A stretch of 64,000 nt of DNA from Methylolobus aquaticus (GTDB lineage Bacteria; Pseudomonadota; Gammaproteobacteria; Methylococcales; Methylococcaceae). The position numbers and the translations under genes were made by a program. Below the pieces are notes generated by a model. The model was not told where the DNA came from and made no database searches. It saw only the letters and a program-made list of their open reading frames with translations. Of the stretch, positions 11,503-58,214 are shown piece by piece (within the stretch, counting starts at the first letter, position 1; every line of letters starts with the position of its first letter). The DNA is taken from NCBI GenBank assembly GCA_004168015.1, contig SEYW01000002.1:109013-173012 (forward strand), in the 5' to 3' direction.

Positions 11503-13194
11503 TCAGCCGCCGGTGCCGGTCAACGGGAAGTACAGGGTCGGGTTGCTGGGGTCATCCGTGACGAGGATGGCGCGATTGCGGTTCAGCGCGCGGCGTAGCG
11601 GCGCGTAATCTAACGTGATCGCGCAGTCGGCCCCGGGCTCCAGTGTGGCGCCGCAGGTGTTGCCGACGATACCGAAGGGGCCCGGCCGCATCAGGTTGAA
11701 GCTGGTGAGGTTCAGGGCCTGGGTACCGGCGTTGCGCAAGGTCAGGGTCTGTGGGTCGCTGGTGGTGCCTTTGGGCACGGTGCCGAAAGCAAAGCGCGCT
11801 TGCGAGCGAACGAGCCGGGGGGCATCGCCTACGCCGGAGAGTGGCACACGGACCAAGGGAGCCACGGCGTCGGTAGTGAGCACGAGGCGCCCATTGAATG
11901 CCCCGCCGCGGGTCGCGGCATAGCGGACACTCACGGTGCAGGATGCGCCGGGCTCCAACACACCGCTGGTGTCGGTGCAGTTTTCCTCGGTGACGCTGAA
12001 GCCGGTGCCGGTCGTTTGCACATTGCTGACGGACACGTCGGCAGTGCCGCGGTTTGTGAAAATCACGGTCTCGTCGACTGGCGTGTTGAGCGCCCGCTTG
12101 CCGAAATCCACGACTGAGCGATCGGCCTTGAGCCAGCTGCCGGTGATGTTGGCGGTGGCGGTCAGCACGACGGCCTTGGCGAGGGTGCCGTCGGCGGGAA
12201 TGGCGATGCGCCCGACCCGTGGTCCGGTGCCGCCGTTGATCTTGCCGGTGAGGTCGAACTGGCAGGAGCCGCTGGCATCGTACATCAGTCCGGAGGTGCA
12301 GGTGCCGGGTGTGTAGCCGGAAAATAGGCCGGGCGCGCCCGCATCAACCCCGAGGGCGTCCTTCGCGAAGTCGAGGTTCATGCTCCCGGTGGTAACCTGG
12401 AAGGCCACGCTCTGCGGCGTCATGTCGGCCCCGCGCTCGACGGTGCCGAAATCGACGCGGGCTGGCGTCAGCGTCGAGGCCACGTGCTCGGCTGCGGCGA
12501 TCTGCGTCGGCGTCCAGCGGTCGGTGGTGTTGCCGAGGCCGAGTTGGCCTTCGGCGTTCCAGCCGAAGGACCAAACCGAGCCATCCGCCTTGATCGCGTA
12601 TGCTGCTGCTTGCCCGGCGCTGATAGCGATCACGTCGCTGAGACTGCCTATCAGCTGCGGCCGGGTCTGGTTGGTCGTGTGTCCCAGCCCCAACTGCCCG
12701 AAGAAGTTGTAGCCCCACGCGTAGATATTGCCCTGACGGGTCAGCGCATACGACGAATAGCTCGACGCCGCAACGGCGACAACGTCAGTTAGGCCATCCA
12801 CGAGGACAGGGACCAGACGATCCGCAAAGCTTCCGTTGCCCAGCTGTCCAAACATGTTGGATCCCCAGGCGTACACAGTGCCGTCGCGCTTCACTGCGAG
12901 CGTATGGCTGCTGCCTCCGGCAATGGCCGCCAGATCTTCAATTCCGTCGACCTTGGTCGGGACCTCTCGCTGAGTCTTATCGCCGAGACCGAGTTGACCG
13001 TTCGAATTGTAGCCCCATGCCCAGACGCTTCCGTCATCTTTGATGGCGAAACTATGCGAACCACCCGTTGCAATCGTGGCAACGTCGGAGACGCCGCTCA
13101 GCTTGGTGAAAGCAGATCGCTTTTCCGTATCACCAAGACCGAGTTGCCCGTCCCAGTTTCCGCCGGTGGCCCACACCGACCCGTCCGGAAGCAA
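11503..13194 (-). pseudogene. RCC1-repeat/choice-of-anchor D protein, main part
   Basis: 563 codons downstream of an in-frame TGA that splits the gene (see the entry at 13225-13608). The N-terminal half has RCC1-type repeats of about 50 residues with the core VWAWGYNSNGQLGLGD, giving a seven-bladed propeller when joined with the upstream part. From about residue 245 there are three immunoglobulin-like ASPM/SPD-2/Hydin-type modules (DFGTVERG, VDFGKRAL, FAFGTVPKG; each with ...EPGASC or similar), common in secreted bacterial proteins. On its own this frame has only a TTG start and no signal peptide. It could be made only by readthrough or internal initiation, neither of which is supported. Confidence 0.8.
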
Positions 13195-13224
13195 TGCCAG
13201 GGTGAAGCTGGAACCGACTGCAAC

Positions 13225-13608
13225 TCAGGTTACGGCACTGACACCGGGTACCTGGACCGGCGTCAAGCGGTCATCCTCGTCGCCGAGACCGAGTTGTCCA
13301 GAAAAGTTATCTCCCCAGGCCCAGAGTGTGCCGTCGTGCTTGGTCGCCACGCTGTGCTGGGATCCCATCGCGATGCGGCTTATGTCGCTGAAACCCTCAA
13401 TCAGCGTGGGAGAGGTTCTGCGGTTGTAGATGTCTCCCTGCCCTAGATCTCCTGAATAGTTGCCGCCTTGCCCCATGACGGTGCCGTCCGCCCGCAATAT
13501 CAGGGATGACCAGCCGCCGCCCGCCACGGCGGGCATCGTGGTTTCGGCGAACGCTGATGCGCTCAGCAGTGCTGCGCACCACAAGACGATGAATCCTCTT
13601 TTATTCAT
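13225..13608 (-). pseudogene. RCC1-repeat protein, 5' part with signal peptide
   Basis: 127 codons from an ATG at 13608 that is preceded by GGAGAG. The protein starts with a clear signal peptide (RGFIVLWCAALLSASAFA) and then has two RCC1 repeats (GTLWAWGDNFSGQLGLGD). It ends at a TGA at 13225-13227. The same frame continues without any shift into the 563-codon part, and the next residues (VAVGSSFTLALLPDG) complete the interrupted repeat. So a single nonsense change, or a base-calling error, splits an otherwise intact gene of about 701 codons for a secreted propeller protein. Confidence 0.8.
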
Positions 13609-43129: not shown

Positions 43130-43723
43130 ATGGAAACTTTGAGACAACGACCGGCATGCGGATTCACTTACGGCGACTACCGGCTCTGGCCGGAAGATAG
43201 GCGGTGGGAATTGATCGACGGTGAGGCTTACGACATGAGCCCCGCCCCGACGCGAACGCATCAAACACTGGTGGGTGAGGTTTTCCGGCAGATCGCCAAC
43301 TATCTGGACGCCAAGCCCTGCGAAGTCTATGTGGCGCCGTTCGACGTGCGCCTGCCGGTAGGCGACGAAGCGGACGATCGGATCAATACCGTGGTGCAGC
43401 CGGATATCGCCGTGATCTGCGATCCATCGAAGCTGGACGAGGCGGGTTGTCGGGGAGCGCCGGACTGGATCATCGAAGTGCTGTCTCCGGCGACAGCCGC
43501 CAAAGACCAGGTTCTGAAGCGCGATCTCTACCAACGGCACGGAGTGCGCGAGTATTGGCTGGTTCATCCCACCGATCACATCCTGACCCGGTATCGCCTC
43601 GAAAATGGAGGCTTCGGTCCCGCCCTGATCGAGGAGATGCGCGGTGCAACGGTCGTGGACAGCATGCCCGGACTGGAAATTTGCTGGGATTTCTTGACCG
43701 CGAAAGGGGCAATCGGGGGCTGA
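43130..43723 (+). CDS. Uma2-family putative endonuclease
   Basis: 197 residues, DUF820/Uma2 family with a PD-(D/E)XK nuclease fold. The motifs are WELIDGEAYDMSPAPTRTHQ near the N-terminus, VVQPDIAVIC (metal Asp) and WIIEVLSPATAAKD (Glu and following Lys region) in the middle, then REYWLVHP. The family is abundant in cyanobacteria and in accessory regions, with unknown function. The start ATG has no strong ribosome-binding site. Its last codons run close to the decayed integrase gene on the other strand. Confidence 0.85.
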   Translation: METLRQRPACGFTYGDYRLWPEDRRWELIDGEAYDMSPAPTRTHQTLVGEVFRQIANYLDAKPCEVYVAPFDVRLPVGDEADDRINTVVQPDIAVICDPSKLDEAGCRGAPDWIIEVLSPATAAKDQVLKRDLYQRHGVREYWLVHPTDHILTRYRLENGGFGPALIEEMRGATVVDSMPGLEICWDFLTAKGAIGG

Positions 43724-43768: not shown

Positions 43769-45105
43769 CTACGCGATCCGGTCCAGCGGACTCTGCACGC
43801 CTTTGCCGCCCTTGTTCAGCACGTGGGTGTAGACCTGTCCTGAGCGAAGTCGAAGGGTCATCGAAGTGCTGCCGTCCTTGTGGCCCAACAGTTCCCGCAC
43901 CGTCCGTATGTCATAGCCGGATTGCAGCAAATGCGTCGCGAACGAGTGCCCAGCGTGTGGGTGCCGACACGCTTCGTAATGCCGGCCCGTTCGGCGGCCG
44001 CCTTCACCGCCTTCTGCAGGCCGTTCTCGTGCAGATGATGACGCCGCACCGCGCCCGAACGCGGGTCGGCTGAAAGTCGCCCGCTGGGAAACGCGTATTG
44101 CCAACGCCAGTCCTTGGCTGCTTGCGGGTACTTTCGCGCCAGCGCGTCCGGCAGGTAGACCTCGCTGAAGCCCTCGGCCAGGTGGGCCTCATGCAGCGCC
44201 TTCACCCGTTCGAGGTGGCTGGTGAGCACCGGAATCACCTTCTCCGGCAAGGGCACGACGCGATCCTTGCCGCCCTTGGCGTTGCGTACGGTGATTTGCC
44301 CATACCCGAAGTCGATGTCCTGCACCCGCAATCGCGAGCATTCCATCAGCCGCATCCCGGTGCCGTACATCAGGGACGCCATCAGATGATGCGTGCCTGA
44401 GAGTTGCCGCAGCAACAACGCCACCTCGGCTTGCGTCAGGACCGTCGGTACGTGTCGGGGCCGCTTCGCGCGTGTGAACTCGCCGATATTCAGATCACCG
44501 CGTCCCAAAGCTTCCCGGTAAAGGAATATCAGCGCGTTCAGGGCCAGGTTTTGCGTGCTTCCTGAAACCCTGCGATGTACGGCCAGTTCATCCAGAAACC
44601 GGGCTATGTCCGAGGCTTGCCCGACTCGGGGATCTTTATCGCCAAGAAAGCCGAGGAAACGGAGCGTCCAGTGCAGATAGGTCTGCTCCGTCTTGATCGA
44701 GAACCCTCGCCGACGGATCGCCGCCCGGACCTGATCCAGCAAGGCCGAGTGTTTAACGCGTAAGGCGTCGAAGGGTGCCGGATTAGGGTCGGGCGTCGCA
44801 TAATTGTGCGTGACGCTCGGATGCGTTCCTTGATAGGTTCCGCGCCGAGTCCCGCCAGTGCCCCCAGTCGACTTCCCCGAGCCAGTCGACGCCGACGAGC
44901 TCGAAGAGTTTCTGTATAGCATCGACCACCTGTCGAAACTGCCAGTCCTTCAGCTCGCCCCGGCGGCCGATTTCGCCGAGATTAGGTTGTCACCTCCGCG
45001 GCCTGGTAATCCTTCAACTTGCTCGCAGGATAGGCCGCGACATATTTTTCGGCACGCAGGACGAACCAACGGTCGAAGGGTAGCTTGATGCTTGATTCAT
45101 GAACG
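43769..45105 (-). pseudogene. Integron-type tyrosine integrase with N-terminal extension, frameshifted
   Basis: Joined frames give an IntI-type recombinase. The core has the SAM-like region ([17 protein letters not shown]), the catalytic domain ([20 protein letters not shown]) and the IntI-specific insert near [20 protein letters not shown]. The end is [20 protein letters not shown] and [11 protein letters not shown] with the nucleophile Tyr. Upstream is an extension of about 100 residues ([36 protein letters not shown]), as in longer integron integrases of gammaproteobacteria. Frameshifts lie near 44985, near 44860 and at 43949-43951, the last removing the Arg of the HTLRH box. A 24-bp repeat is inserted just before the catalytic Tyr. 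The gene cannot encode an active enzyme. Confidence 0.85.
43834..43857 (+). repeat. 24-bp dispersed repeat inside the integrase gene
   Basis: CCTGTCCTGAGCGAAGTCGA and four more bases; on the plus strand it would read PVLSEVEG. It adds eight codons in frame between STSM and YTH of the integrase. I recognise it as one of the short sequences scattered through many bacterial genomes. Confidence 0.65.
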
Positions 45106-45338
45106 TTTAAAGATACCGATCCCACAAGGACCGCCCCCTTTCGGTGCGCTAAGTGTCGCGCGTTGACGTCGGCGCAGACATGAGATAGTTTTCGACTGAA
45201 GAGCAAACCGCCGACGGCTGCCGAGCGGCTGTTTCCGTGAGCGGGCAGTCTCAGTCGAGGTGCTTTACAGAATCTGCTTAGCACGTTCACCACACATTCT
45301 GTAGAGCATGCTTAGGGCAGATTCTGTGAAAGAACAAT

Positions 45339-45345
45339 GTTAGGC
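45339..45345 (+). other. Candidate attI recombination core
   Basis: GTTAGGC, matching the integron core GTTRRRY. It lies about 235 bases from the N-terminal coding part of the integrase, on its 5' side, and directly before the first cassette gene, where attI is expected. No complementary upstream core was found, so it is unlikely to be an attC end. Confidence 0.5.
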
Positions 45346-45355
45346 GATTGACACG

Positions 45356-45895
45356 ATGCGCCTTCCTGCACTTGAAAAGAACATCCTTGTCTACCGCGCC
45401 CTCCAAATGGCGCTGTTCCTGTTCTATTCAGAGGCTCTCAGGCGGCAGCTAGTATTTGCAGTTGGGCGTGAAATTAAGAAGGGTGGCCAGTCCATCAAAG
45501 ACGACAAGTTGCTCAAGCGCATTTTTCGCGAGCTTGAGTGCAACTCAATACTCACGGCAGATGAGAGCATCGAAGTTCAGTCGTTGCTACAGCATCGAAA
45601 CACGATTGCCCATCAGATACATCAGCTCACGGGTGATATTGAGCTTCCGGGCCGCAACTATCGGTTCGCAGCTTACCTCCCGCGCAAGTATGATTACGGC
45701 GCGCTCGCCAAGATCACACATTGGCACGATGCGCTTCCAGATAGACTGTCCAAACATTACATGCTCACGATTGGATTCGATTCCCTTGAGTTTGAGGCTG
45801 CGGCACACGCGTACGAACGCGAACTTGAAACGCTCCGCAGACGCATTGACAAGCAGTATGCGATACGCAAAAAAGCCACCAAACGAATCGCCTAA
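45356..45895 (+). CDS. Cassette 1: HEPN-like hypothetical protein
   Basis: 179 residues, mainly helical. The motif LLQHRNTIAHQIHQ contains Arg81 and His86 in the Rx4H pattern of HEPN ribonucleases. HEPN proteins are often toxins or antiviral effectors; no nucleotidyltransferase (MNT) partner is adjacent. The ATG lies 11 bases after the candidate attI core, and the stop codon TAA lies inside the GCCTAAC that opens the following attC, a layout usual for integron cassettes. The gene is AT-richer than the chromosome. The HEPN call rests on one motif and the helical content. Confidence 0.6.
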   Translation: MRLPALEKNILVYRALQMALFLFYSEALRRQLVFAVGREIKKGGQSIKDDKLLKRIFRELECNSILTADESIEVQSLLQHRNTIAHQIHQLTGDIELPGRNYRFAAYLPRKYDYGALAKITHWHDALPDRLSKHYMLTIGFDSLEFEAAAHAYERELETLRRRIDKQYAIRKKATKRIA

Positions 45896-46015
45896 CGACG
45901 GCGCTGCAGCGAACCGCCGCCCCGCTGGGCAGTTGGACGGTTCAGGTAATTTGTTCGCGACTGTTGCAGCCGACCGGGCGTTTCCGGCGGCGGTCGCTGA
46001 GCTTGGTCGTTGGGC
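45890..46015 (+). other. attC site of cassette 1
   Basis: 126 bp from GCCTAAC to GTTGGGC. The outer arms pair for about 30 bases with few mismatches: GACGGCGCTGCAGCGAACC and CGCCGCC on the left against GGCGGCGGTCGCTGAGCTTG and GTCG on the right. This is the imperfect palindrome expected of an integron attC. Confidence 0.8.
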
Positions 46016-49194: not shown

Positions 49195-49848
49195 GTGCAT
49201 CTGTTTAAATATCTTGCGCGTGAACATCTGCGTGCCTTTCTCAGCAGAGGCACTGTAAGAATCGGTACGTTGTATGAGTATCGCCAAATTGAAAAATTTG
49301 GTGCTGTGGTAGGAGACGTCAATGAAGGGTCGCATCAGACGGAACTAAGCGTACCTGGAGGCGCCGAGATCGATTTGTCGACAAATTCATCAGAAGCTGA
49401 GTTTTTCCGAACCCATGTACTTAGTCCAGAATTGCAAGATGCAAAGGTTAAGTTTATTTTGCAAGATGGCGCGAAGCTGATAGTTAACAGCAATTCACAG
49501 AATCTATATATCTACTGCGTTACCCATGAATTTAGTGCAGAGGTTATGAAGGAATTTGGTTGTGATTCATGTCTGGAAATTGTCAATCCAGATGGCTTTT
49601 TTGCAGCTCTTAGTAAGCGAATACGACACAAGGCTACGTTCAATAGCTATGGTCCCATCACTTACGCAAACAAGTACACTCACTACACTAACCCTCACGA
49701 GCGGCACCCAGCGGCGGTGAAGTCCCCTGAGTACGGGTATCAAAAAGAATGGAGAGCTATATGGATCCCAGTCAAGCCGCCGCGCAAGTCGCTAATCATT
49801 GATGCACCGCGCGCAATTCATTATTGCCGGCCATATAAGCCATCCTGA
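49195..49848 (+). CDS. Hypothetical protein, weakly DUF2971-like
   Basis: 217 residues, starting at a GTG (HLFKYLAREHLRAFLSRG) with no clear ribosome-binding site. The N-terminal LFKYL...GTVRIGTLYEYR and the C-terminal YGYQKEWRAIWIP recall DUF2971-type proteins, which begin with a KY motif and end with an EWR motif and are frequent in defence-gene regions. The call is weak. The gene is strikingly AT-rich against its surroundings and lies between two direct repeats, so it was probably acquired. Confidence 0.55.
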   Translation: MHLFKYLAREHLRAFLSRGTVRIGTLYEYRQIEKFGAVVGDVNEGSHQTELSVPGGAEIDLSTNSSEAEFFRTHVLSPELQDAKVKFILQDGAKLIVNSNSQNLYIYCVTHEFSAEVMKEFGCDSCLEIVNPDGFFAALSKRIRHKATFNSYGPITYANKYTHYTNPHERHPAAVKSPEYGYQKEWRAIWIPVKPPRKSLIIDAPRAIHYCRPYKPS

Positions 49849-50735: not shown

Positions 50736-51053
50736 ATGAGCATGATGAAAGCAACGTATTCCGAGTCGCTGTTCAAGACTCTGAAATACCGTCCGGACTA
50801 CCCGGCCAAGCCCTTTGCCGAACTGGCCGACGCCCGGCGTTGGGTCGAGCACCTGGCGCACTGGTATAACCACGAGCACCGCCACAGCGCGCTCCGCTTC
50901 GTGACCCCTGCCCAACGGCATGCCGGACTCGATGCGCCACTCCTGGCACAGCGCAAGGCCGTTTACGAAGCCGCCCGCCGACGCCACCCGAAGATCGGGG
51001 TCAGTTCTTTATTTGCTAATGACGCCCCGATGGGCTATTCGTCATGGCAATGA
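50736..51053 (+). pseudogene. IS3-family transposase OrfB, C-terminal fragment
   Basis: 105 codons. SESLFKTLKYRPDYPAKPF, WYNHEHRHSALRFVTPAQRH and AVYEAARRRHPKI are the end of the DDE integrase domain of IS3-group OrfB, including the catalytic Glu in SESLFK. The first two Asp motifs and OrfA are absent. The final 20 residues are not IS-like and come from a join. It sits exactly where the toxin partner of the orphan antitoxin should be. Confidence 0.75.
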
Positions 51054-51361: not shown

Positions 51362-52207
<846 letters not shown>

Positions 52208-52314: not shown

Positions 52315-54601
<2,287 letters not shown>

Positions 54602-54615
<14 letters not shown>

Positions 54616-54856
54616 CTCGGCCCCCGAAGCCGCTGAGGATGCGCTTGACCCGGGTCTCGTAGCGATCCTGAACGTGCTCGCCGCACACGCGATGGAAGGC
54701 ACCGGCCGCGATCTGAGCCTGGCGCGTCTCGCCAAGCGCACCGGCCTGCGTCAAAGCACGCTGCGCCGCTATCTGACCTTGCTCGAAGAAGCCGGCATCG
54801 TGCGGGTCACGCTAGAGGAGGATGGGGGCGGGAGTGTGGGGTTGTTGAGGTTGTGA
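54602..54856 (+). CDS. Small winged-helix regulator
   Basis: 84 residues from a GTG at 54602, overlapping the oxidoreductase gene by 14 bases. The helix-turn-helix is LSLARLAKRTGLRQSTLRRY, followed by LTLLEEAGIVRVT and a wing of Gly-rich residues. It resembles the DNA-binding half of IclR/MarR-like regulators without an effector domain. Overlap indicates co-translation with the oxidoreductase, so a role in its regulation or maturation is inferred. Confidence 0.75.
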
Positions 54857-55345
54857 GTAGGCCACGATACGGAGTGGACGTGTGATTCCGCCCGCGACGT
54901 GGTGGAGGCCTACACAAAGGAAGCTAACAGTGTGTTTTCAGTCCAGCCCGACGAATACAGCGTACAGTCCAAGCCACGCCGGCTCCGGTATTTACCCGAT
55001 CGGCCGTCTAAGCAAGTTGGGCCGTAGTTCTAAATGTGTCTGAGGAGGAAGCACCACGCCCCACCCTGACCCCGTCGTTCAGTTCGGTGTGGTCGGACCC
55101 GTGGCCCGGTTGCTGGCTGCGCGGCGTTGCAAACGTATTCTCGGGCGACGTAGGGTCTCACCCTCATGCCCTCAGAGTGTGCCGTTTGGCCAAGTCCCGA
55201 TTTGTAGTGCCTCGTGGCCCAGGGTGTTGTGGCAGTATGGGTTAAGCTGGTAGAAGTCATGAGCAGGGCAGGCTAAAACTGTGGTGAGTTGCCGTTGCAA
55301 TAGATTGGGGCGATACTCATACACGCCGACGACCAACGAGACAAT
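54857..55345. other. Gene-free stretch
   Basis: 489 bases, base composition drifting to AT-richer towards the right. Only short frames that overlap on opposite strands. It probably marks the edge of the acquired nuclease-like gene. Confidence 0.4.
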
Positions 55346-56578
55346 ATGGATATTACCCCCAATGCGAAGCCCTTAACCGATACGTCAGTGATCGTTCAGG
55401 CTAGTCACGCGCCAGTATTCAGGGGTTCGTCAAGCAAGCTGTTCCGTTGCAATAGTTGTGGCCATGTTCTGATAGAGGGATATGATTCTAGAAGGCTAAT
55501 TGCGATCAGGATCGAGTGCTTCCGGTGCAAGACAATTACGATGACCGATCCATGGCCGGTAGGCGAACCGCTACCGAACTCGCTTCTCAATTTGGGGCGT
55601 GCGGGACGAATTGCCCTCAGTGATCCGGTTGATGTGCGTGAAGGGGTTGCCTTATCCAGTAGTTCTGAAATCGAGAGAGTAAAAGGACTCACTGGGCCTC
55701 GGGCGCCGAGCCGGTCGCGGTGGGAGCTGTCACGGAGTTGGCTGAATGCTTTGGAGACAGAACTTGATATCTTGACGGATGGCGCCGTGCAGAAGATGGC
55801 CGCTCGAGTTCGCCGCGCCGACCGTGCCGGGAATGCGAAATACGGCCATATTGAGGCGCCTCCTGTCTGGGCTATGGCTCGGCTTCGTAGCGCCCTTGAA
55901 GCGGGATACGTAGATTTTGGTGGGTCAGATGGACTGGCCTTTGCCTACGTTCAAACTCTCAGAGATTGCTTGGATCGTTGGCACGATCGTCCACGTTTTT
56001 CGGAGATCGCGCGTTCGCTTTGCTACGACTTTCATCATGCAGTGACTACCCTTTCGATAGCTAGTTATCTCTCGGATCACGGAAACCACATTGGTATCAC
56101 TCACACATCTGCTCAGCAAGGAAGGTCGCCTGACTTATTTATTAATGTTGATGGGTATGATAAGCTTTCGATGGAGGTGAAATGTCCAAGAGCGCTATTC
56201 TTGCCATCGGAGCGTCTAACAGCGGCTGATTTAGCTCGAAAACTCGAGAAGGAGATAAAGAGTGCGGCTGGACAAATTACTGGTAGTGGTGGCATCGTAG
56301 TGATCGGTTCGGGGCGACCGAGCGACGAACCGGATCTCGAGCTAACTCAGGCTATCGATCATATCATTGCTCGCGGGAAGATATCACGGCAGGTTGCTGC
56401 CGTATCCAGCATCCAACTCTATAGTCGCGTTCCGAGGAACCAGCATGCGAACGAGCGAGGCTGGACAATAGGTGGATGGGTGCATGTGGCACTCAACCCA
56501 CGATTCATTGGCCCGAATCCCGTCGAAACTCAACATAAGCCAGATTGGTGGGCTGGCAGAGAGGTGAATTGGCTCTGA
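55346..56578 (+). CDS. Zinc-ribbon/PD-(D/E)XK nuclease-like protein
   Basis: 410 residues. The N-terminus has two CxxC pairs, Cys35/Cys38 (FRCNSCGHV) and Cys58/Cys61 (ECFRCKTI), forming a zinc ribbon. A helical middle part (about 120-245) follows. Residues 262-279 show SPDLFINVDG then SMEVK: Asp263, Glu277 and Lys279 in the order and spacing of a PD-(D/E)XK nuclease core. Nuclease function is inferred from that motif; I know no named family. The gene is AT-rich, isolated between empty stretches, and unlike its neighbours in codon use, so it is probably acquired. A stand-alone defence or restriction-type nuclease is possible. Confidence 0.6.
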   Translation: MDITPNAKPLTDTSVIVQASHAPVFRGSSSKLFRCNSCGHVLIEGYDSRRLIAIRIECFRCKTITMTDPWPVGEPLPNSLLNLGRAGRIALSDPVDVREGVALSSSSEIERVKGLTGPRAPSRSRWELSRSWLNALETELDILTDGAVQKMAARVRRADRAGNAKYGHIEAPPVWAMARLRSALEAGYVDFGGSDGLAFAYVQTLRDCLDRWHDRPRFSEIARSLCYDFHHAVTTLSIASYLSDHGNHIGITHTSAQQGRSPDLFINVDGYDKLSMEVKCPRALFLPSERLTAADLARKLEKEIKSAAGQITGSGGIVVIGSGRPSDEPDLELTQAIDHIIARGKISRQVAAVSSIQLYSRVPRNQHANERGWTIGGWVHVALNPRFIGPNPVETQHKPDWWAGREVNWL

Positions 56579-57134
56579 CACGATTTAGCTGATTCACAAG
56601 AATGGCCCACGCACGATTTGTAGCGAATATCAGATCTCCCTGCTGGCGCGCTAGGCGTCCGGATGCTGTATGGAGAAAGGGGTTAACGGTGGAACGGGTC
56701 CCCTGTCGACTTCGTTAAGCATGCGAGCACCTGTTCGGCGATGCCTTTCCATGAACCTGTGGACCTCGTTGGTGAGTGCGCCGCCTGGCGCTACGACCGA
56801 CTAGCATCGGGCGAGCAGTGTGATTCGGTGTATTCCTGTACCGAGGAAGGCTCGGGGCGAAAGGAGCCTCCCTACTAGAAAGAAATCCGCCGTCGTGAGT
56901 TCGACGAGACCGATGCGCTGGACGTGCATGTCGATGTCCGTATCGGCATCATCATCGATGAGTAGGAGGCGCGATCTAGGGCGTCATTACGGAGCGATGG
57001 TTGGGCGGCAGTCCGATCGTACACGTCGCCCGGGGTCGAGACGCTTGACAAGGATTGACCGCGATGGGGAAAGTCTCATTGTGTGCAGCCAGAGGCCGAT
57101 CTACCATTTTCCTATCACCTTCAAGGACATTCTG
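56579..57134. other. Gene-free stretch before the lectin-like gene
   Basis: 556 bases. The frame of the next gene stays open back to 56820, but that extension is Arg/Ser-rich and would bury the signal peptide, so I treat it as non-coding. No repeat seen. Confidence 0.4.
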
Positions 57135-58214
57135 ATGCCCCGTCGCCTTGCTCCTACCGCCGGTTGGTCTTTGCTTGCGTTGTCTGTCTCGGCTTTCAGC
57201 TCCCTCACCGGTGCAACCGCCCCGCCGTCGGTCGAATTGCATGACATCGATAACTGTGATGTCGGCGGCGGCAGCGCCGATATCCAGTCGGTGCAAACCC
57301 GGTATCTGCGCGATACGGACGAAATTCGCGTGGAGCTGAGTCTGTGCGACTATGTCTTGCCGCAGACGGTCTATACCGTGCACCTGGATCATGCGCCGCC
57401 CTATCTCGGAGAAGCGGGCCTGAGCCGAGCCACGGCCGGCTGTCGCGATCCGTCCGATACGATTGTCCAACGGCGGAAGGGTCGGCACTTCGGGCCTGGG
57501 CGTAGCCACTCTGCGGGGAACCGCGTGCGTTTTCGTATCCCGGTGAGCACCCTCGGCGTCGATCCGAAAGCGCTCGGCGCCCATGTGTCGGTTTGGGTCA
57601 GCAGCGACCTGGATGGTGTCCGCGACCATGCACCGAACACCGAGCACGGCGATGGCTGCAAGCATCCGCAAAGCAAACACGAGGCGCTGGCGACCCCGCT
57701 GACGGTCTTCGGTTACATCGCGTTCGCCACGCTACCGACCTCGGAAGGTTTCGGCGATGGTTATTCCGGAGTCAACGACGCCTGCAACTTCGTGGCCCGC
57801 GAGGCCGGCTTAAAGGGCGATTTCGTTCCCTGGGTCGCCGCCAACGGCTTGTCGCCGAGCCTGATGGTCGACCCAACGAAAGGGCCATGGCAGACCCTGA
57901 ACGGAACGGTGGTTGCGAACAACCTGCTGGACTTGATGACCTGCAACAAGGGGCCGAGCGGAACGGACTGTCTGCGGGCGCCGCTGAACCGGGATGTGAA
58001 GGGCAATCCCCTGCCGGCCGGTACCCTGGCCTGGACCAATGTCACGACCGCCGGTGTCGCAGCCGGGCCCTCCTGCAATGACTGGACGACCATCTCGGCA
58101 GGCGTCACCGGGACGGTCGGCAAGATCGATTCGGTCGGCGCGGACTGGACCAACAGCGGCGCCGTGCCCTGCAACACGCTGGCCAGTTATTACTGTTTGC
58201 AGGTCTTGCGCTGA
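57135..58214 (+). CDS. Secreted protein with DUF1554-like C-terminus
   Basis: 359 residues from the ATG at 57135 (AAGGACA upstream). Signal peptide WSLLALSVSAFSSLTGATA. The first half is a beta-rich domain with DNCDVGGGSADI and RVELSLCDYVLP. The second half, from GYSGVNDACNFVAREAGLKG through VPWVAANGLSPS to DWTNSGAVPCNTLASYYCLQ, resembles the C-type-lectin-like DUF1554 domain of secreted proteins, with paired cysteines likely in disulfides. A surface or extracellular binding role is inferred. It stands alone. Confidence 0.7.
   Translation: MPRRLAPTAGWSLLALSVSAFSSLTGATAPPSVELHDIDNCDVGGGSADIQSVQTRYLRDTDEIRVELSLCDYVLPQTVYTVHLDHAPPYLGEAGLSRATAGCRDPSDTIVQRRKGRHFGPGRSHSAGNRVRFRIPVSTLGVDPKALGAHVSVWVSSDLDGVRDHAPNTEHGDGCKHPQSKHEALATPLTVFGYIAFATLPTSEGFGDGYSGVNDACNFVAREAGLKGDFVPWVAANGLSPSLMVDPTKGPWQTLNGTVVANNLLDLMTCNKGPSGTDCLRAPLNRDVKGNPLPAGTLAWTNVTTAGVAAGPSCNDWTTISAGVTGTVGKIDSVGADWTNSGAVPCNTLASYYCLQVLR

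Follow-up and report, generated by a model that had tools for sequence, protein, structure and literature searches.

The window analysed here is a 64,000-nucleotide stretch of a Methylolobus aquaticus contig, and the gene under study is an open reading frame of 410 aa on its forward strand, with its ATG at 55346 and a stop codon that ends at 56578; frame and coordinates were verified. The gene is present in one copy in its own genome. It had been called AT-rich by an earlier reading based on the sequence only, a description that holds in relative terms (53.0% GC versus 62.8% for the window). Its third-position GC, 0.505, is the lowest among the 45 listed ORFs of at least 250 aa, a list that takes in spurious overlapping frames. 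The same reading had the gene standing without neighbours, and flanking coding sequence indeed stops at 54856 and restarts at 57135, the latter position depending on the start codon chosen. In a genome of the same genus (G070), the flanks are 95% identical and 209 unrelated bases replace positions 54838-57129; in another (G109), only the left side is matched, the match ending at about 54800. The foreign look ascribed to the gene is thus borne out by a block that is missing from the sister genome (see the table). Besides the intact candidate gene, this block contains short ORFs only, with neither phage genes nor a cognate methyltransferase gene. Its non-coding flanks were not found in 40 relatives, bar one 20-base match, and an Rfam search of 54600-57300 gave no match.

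Table. Features of the candidate nuclease gene and of the block that carries it (window coordinates).
Feature	Coordinates	Strand	Basis
Strain-specific block, 2,292 bp, nuclease gene the only convincing ORF	54838..57129	.	G070 comparison
Orphan zinc-ribbon PD-(D/E)XK nuclease candidate, 410 aa	55346..56578	+	Translation; relatives 28-41% identical, nearly full length
N-terminal zinc ribbon, residues 31-65, Com-like	55436..55540	+	C35, C38, C58, C61 invariant 4/4
Helical middle region, residues 105-212	55658..55981	+	AlphaFold secondary structure
Predicted PD-(D/E)XK core, residues 218-383	55997..56494	+	Four-sequence AlphaFold model; PaqCI alignment
D228, candidate motif I acid	56027..56029	+	Alignment column (Glu in three relatives)
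D263, motif II	56132..56134	+	Invariant 4/4; directly before strand 264-269
E277-V278-K279, motif III	56174..56182	+	E, K invariant 4/4; on strand 275-279
Q310, candidate motif IV	56273..56275	+	Invariant 4/4; just after helix 293-308

Profile searches of Pfam, NCBIfam and PADLOC found no family for the window protein. PADLOC-DB likewise gave no family for the three members of an earlier alignment (A2); sequence searches of the PDB gave no credible match, and no zinc-ribbon PD-(D/E)XK or Com-like nuclease family recognised as matching emerged from a search of the open-licence literature. Relatives were sought in genomes. The order-level (301 genomes) and class-level (369 genomes) searches found the gene, or a credible match, in the window genome only, and the phylum-level search (398 genomes) added one relative, from Caballeronia sp. 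dw_276 (G896, E 1.3e-41). A second, from Burkholderia sp. MS389 (G1196), was found among 249 genomes of the family of the first, and a third (G1710) among 65 genomes of the genus of the second. No further members were found in 250 genomes of the order of MS389, in 58 genomes of the genus of dw_276 or in 220 genomes from another class of the phylum, these samples overlapping one another. Seventeen weaker matches (seven at class level, ten at phylum level, E 7e-4 to 0.01) were discarded as chance because they score 14-20 bits, are short and in many cases contain internal stops. As established by these computations, the known members of the family are the window protein and three diverged relatives from Burkholderia and Caballeronia, 41, 34 and 28% identical to it. 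Scans with peptide patterns of the window protein alone had no match in either the genome or the viral collections, and a pattern scan of the genome collection gave two loci only, so that the family is at least as widespread as described here.

Two CxxC pairs near the N-terminus and a PD-(D/E)XK-like signature were the basis on which a nuclease had been proposed. Both are present at the positions claimed, the former as C35/C38 and C58/C61 and the latter as PD263...E277xK279. Two CxxC pairs with similar spacing did not arise in any of 5000 composition shuffles of the 410-aa protein. Conversely, a PD-x(8-25)-[DE]xK string occurred in 8.3% of 5000 such shuffles; taken alone the motif is therefore weak, and the nuclease idea cannot rest on a single sequence. 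What makes it strong is that the relatives keep the named residues. The four-member alignment has 46 invariant columns out of 410, among them those of C35, C38, C58, C61, D263, E277, K279, Q310, G315 and G316; the hypergeometric probability that the four cysteines, D263, E277 and K279 would all fall among these columns is about 1.5e-7. The hallmark of the PD-(D/E)XK superfamily, a motif II Asp together with a motif III (D/E)xK, is thus conserved across all four members. The proline preceding D263 is replaced by Ala in G1710, and position 228 is Asp in the window protein and Glu in the three relatives.

The fold of the C-terminal part was then examined by structure prediction. No statement on the fold is based on the AlphaFold model of the single sequence (pLDDT 36), although the order of elements in its C-terminal part agrees with the model obtained from the four sequences (pLDDT 67.6, pTM 0.61). 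In the latter, helix 229-244 is followed by strands 248-253, 264-269 and 275-279, helix 293-308 and strand 316-322, and the predicted core as a whole runs helix, three strands, helix, strand, helix, strands, an order that is restriction-endonuclease-like. The common core of PD-(D/E)XK enzymes has, according to PMC1913061, this same order of helices and strands, with the motif II Asp on the second strand, the (D/E)XK of motif III, and additional polar residues carried by helices of the core. The pLDDT falls below 50 at residues 256-261 and 269-272, which lie next to the presumed active site. The sequence-only reading had made its proposal depend on a restriction-endonuclease core in the predicted fold; the comparison was run, and the model did not refute the proposal.

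Structural matches to this model are of limited height, and all of them lie in the range (Z below 8) that, as the structure-comparison tool warns, may reflect only a common arrangement. The top ones are acetyl-CoA carboxylase domains (Foldseek E 4.7e-4; Z 7.3), so that one non-nuclease scores above the nucleases, which match at Z 4-6 only. The nearest solved nuclease is the endonuclease domain of PaqCI (8epx, Z 6.0), which aligns with residues 227-392 through 133 residues of the N-terminal part of PaqCI. That part is the endonuclease domain according to PMC10201449. Next come CdiA-CT (Z 5.9 and 5.3), MspJI (4.8) and McrBC (4.8), followed by BsmI, XisH, YaeQ, BspD6I, Cdn1 and FokI. By labels that are in part presumed, the 50 matches listed divide into 21 restriction-endonuclease-like entries (ten proteins), 17 acetyl-CoA carboxylase entries and 12 others. 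Predicted viral structures gave weak matches, some of them annotated as restriction or PD-(D/E)XK endonucleases. In profile alignment (hhalign), Mrr, HsdR, Uma2 and Tox-REase-5 scored no higher than seven controls did. Together, the conserved catalytic residues and the four-sequence model uphold the PD-(D/E)XK-type core: a PD-(D/E)XK fold with metal-dependent chemistry is a well-supported prediction for the C-terminal region, and the protein is very probably a nuclease of this type.

The loci of the relatives bear on what such a nuclease might be for. Two relatives lie in prophage cargo and the third adjoins an integrase gene. The MS389 prophage, represented by two loci (L022 and L024) whose prophage DNA is 100% identical over two stretches, carries in order genes for an integrase, a 296-aa protein, the nuclease, SRAP, PAAR, Tox-REase-5, Imm52, a D12 methylase, lysis and baseplate. 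To judge by its baseplate-hub gene (Phage_GPD), this could be a P2-like phage. The 296-aa gene (1319-2209 in L024), between integrase and nuclease, is without Pfam or PADLOC match; in L022, the SRAP gene is interrupted by a transposase-bearing insert. In G1710, the nuclease gene lies beyond a methylase gene of the D12 kind, assigned by eye from sequence, a patatin gene and an endolysin-like gene. In Caballeronia, it lies between an integrase gene and a gene that I take to be miaA. About 3.4 kb beyond it is a 307-aa ORF (12598-13521 of that locus, L023) that PADLOC matches weakly to LmuA (E 2.2e-4).

A D12-type methylase gene thus occurs near two of the four loci. Phage KS9, devoid of the nuclease, encodes a methylase 90% identical to that of the MS389 prophage, and there too hypothetical genes come after the methylase gene. 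An obligate pairing of nuclease and D12 methylase, as in restriction-modification, was rejected because the methylase is absent from the window block, because inspection by eye of the ORFs up to 8 kb from the Caballeronia nuclease gene revealed none, and because it is found in nuclease-free phages.

Since two of the four known members reside in bacterial viruses, the gene is a candidate single-gene weapon against rival viruses. The genes adjoining it in the window are not defence genes, and the case for an antiphage role is therefore made on the relatives. An alternative is that the protein serves the life cycle of the phage itself, in recombination, replication or the take-over of host DNA, and that what the window holds is a stranded copy with no function for the host. 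Two of the four loci are inside prophages, next to phage lysis and methylase genes, as this alternative would have it. However, tblastn with each of the four members found nothing in 50,697 phage records, which argues against a core gene of phages, and in the window the gene is intact and its block free of phage genes; a life-cycle role is accordingly unlikely. Searches with each of the four proteins among 72,556 plasmids gave no match, and in IMG/VR the G1710 protein was found on two contigs and the MS389 protein on another.

The PAAR, Tox-REase-5 and Imm52 genes of L024, some 2-4.5 kb from the nuclease gene, raise the possibility of a delivered antibacterial nuclease toxin. Yet the toxin and immunity genes of that locus already pair with each other, no other convincing ORF in the window block could serve as an immunity gene, and the protein begins with a zinc ribbon, Pfam searches recognising no delivery domain in it. 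This makes a toxin highly improbable.

A self-mobilising, homing-type endonuclease would account for its own insertion, and a lone nuclease gene in a block missing from G070 is in keeping with it. An imperfect direct repeat of 17/21 positions (55187-55207 and 56603-56623) lies on both sides of the gene, but a repeat this good was equalled in 11 of 1000 simulations and is suggestive at most. A GGTTAA string is found some way downstream of each copy. The four loci have no evident insertion site or context in common, and G070 holds 209 unrelated bases instead of a cleanly joined site; homing is very improbable.

The zinc ribbon itself is borne out by four cysteines invariant in all members and by its matches to Com-like ribbons. 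The best family match, in two of the three members scanned, is PHROG 6417 (translational regulator), a weak one (E 0.01 for the window protein, 0.0085 for the best member). BLASTP aligns the ribbon with Com of phage Mu at 14 of 32 identical positions (44%, E 4e-4 for that single comparison), and hhalign gives 91% probability, over a short match, between the ribbon profile of three members and a profile of six phage proteins of the Com type. One family member also matches the YABBY zinc finger (E 2.7e-4), so that a generic ribbon stays in play. Com, the activator of mom translation, resembles the window protein in its four-cysteine ribbon and differs from it in being a 62-aa protein encoded directly before a mom or methylase gene; here the ribbon heads a protein of 410 aa, and no mom or methylase gene follows in the block. 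The zinc finger of Com is the part with which it binds RNA (PMC6483171), and a Com-like RNA-binding regulator with a non-catalytic C-terminal fold may be considered, but is hard to credit given that the catalytic residues are kept in four of four members, although the relatives are only 28-41% identical to the window protein, and that no mom or methylase gene follows the nuclease gene in the window.

I thus return to a mobile PD-(D/E)XK nuclease, encoded by a single gene, that serves phages in competing with one another, which is the reading I consider probable, if only modestly so; whether defence or inter-phage competition is the main use stands at about an even chance. Both the antiphage role and the trigger are proposed from context only. 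In such a scheme, binding to nucleic acid or to a partner would fall to the N-terminal four-cysteine ribbon and the helical middle region, and cutting, with the help of a divalent metal, to the C-terminal core (D228, D263, E277, K279, Q310). The gene would be carried as cargo by temperate phages and islands, and would have landed in this chromosome without a phage or island. Its product would attack the DNA (RNA being less likely) of competing phages, either restricting it directly or acting, once triggered, as a suicide nuclease. RNA recognition of the Com type by the ribbon is speculative. Were the ribbon to have kept the RNA reading of Com, the nuclease could be armed by the mRNA element with which phages turn on mom or dam, their modification genes against restriction, and so sense a phage counter-defence, an extension that I hold to be highly improbable.

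Set against the PD-(D/E)XK superfamily, the protein matches in sequence no nuclease family of Pfam, NCBIfam or PADLOC, and carries an N-terminal zinc ribbon in place of a known recognition domain; its block holds no partner methylase. In the type IV restriction enzyme Mrr, a D...ExK core and a GIVVIG-like strand come after a binding part. The window protein has a similar general layout but, unlike Mrr, has no Pfam match, and hhalign to E. coli Mrr gives a probability of 0.2%. What is new is a family absent from the catalogues and unusual in its domain order, inside a known superfamily. If the protein cuts, a nuclease family made of a zinc ribbon, a helical region and a PD-(D/E)XK core has been missed by defence catalogues, with carriers as different as Burkholderia prophages and an isolated chromosomal insert in another order of the same class. 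The likeness of the ribbon to Com provides a concrete hypothesis on what such a nuclease would recognise.

Other features of the window deserve mention. A tyrosine recombinase gene (43858-44922; 354 aa, Pfam phage integrase), presumably resembling an integron integrase, is followed by orphan ORFs of lower GC, and a GCCTAAC...GTTGGGC element at 45890-46015 has ends that pair (z -0.97); the region 43858-46015 is possibly a small chromosomal integron. An integron-cassette origin of the nuclease gene was rejected because an attC-like site is missing (the pattern matches include no paired core sites, and 56579-56725 folds no better than its shuffles do) and backbone genes common with G070 intervene. 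Positions 43130-43720 (+) encode a putative endonuclease of the Uma2 family (Pfam E 1.9e-33). A 217-aa orphan ORF at 49195-49848 (+), upstream of a transposase fragment (50736-51053, rve_3), is matched weakly to ZorE by PADLOC (E 0.0046). Finally, an ORF at 51362-52198 (-), whose DNA is common to G070 at 95%, encodes an apparent signal peptide, a ubiquitin domain of almost eukaryotic type (Pfam ubiquitin E 1.2e-29) and then about 100 residues instead of a Gly-Gly end; Bacteroides fragilis is known to secrete a ubiquitin (PMC3352274, PMC5705921).
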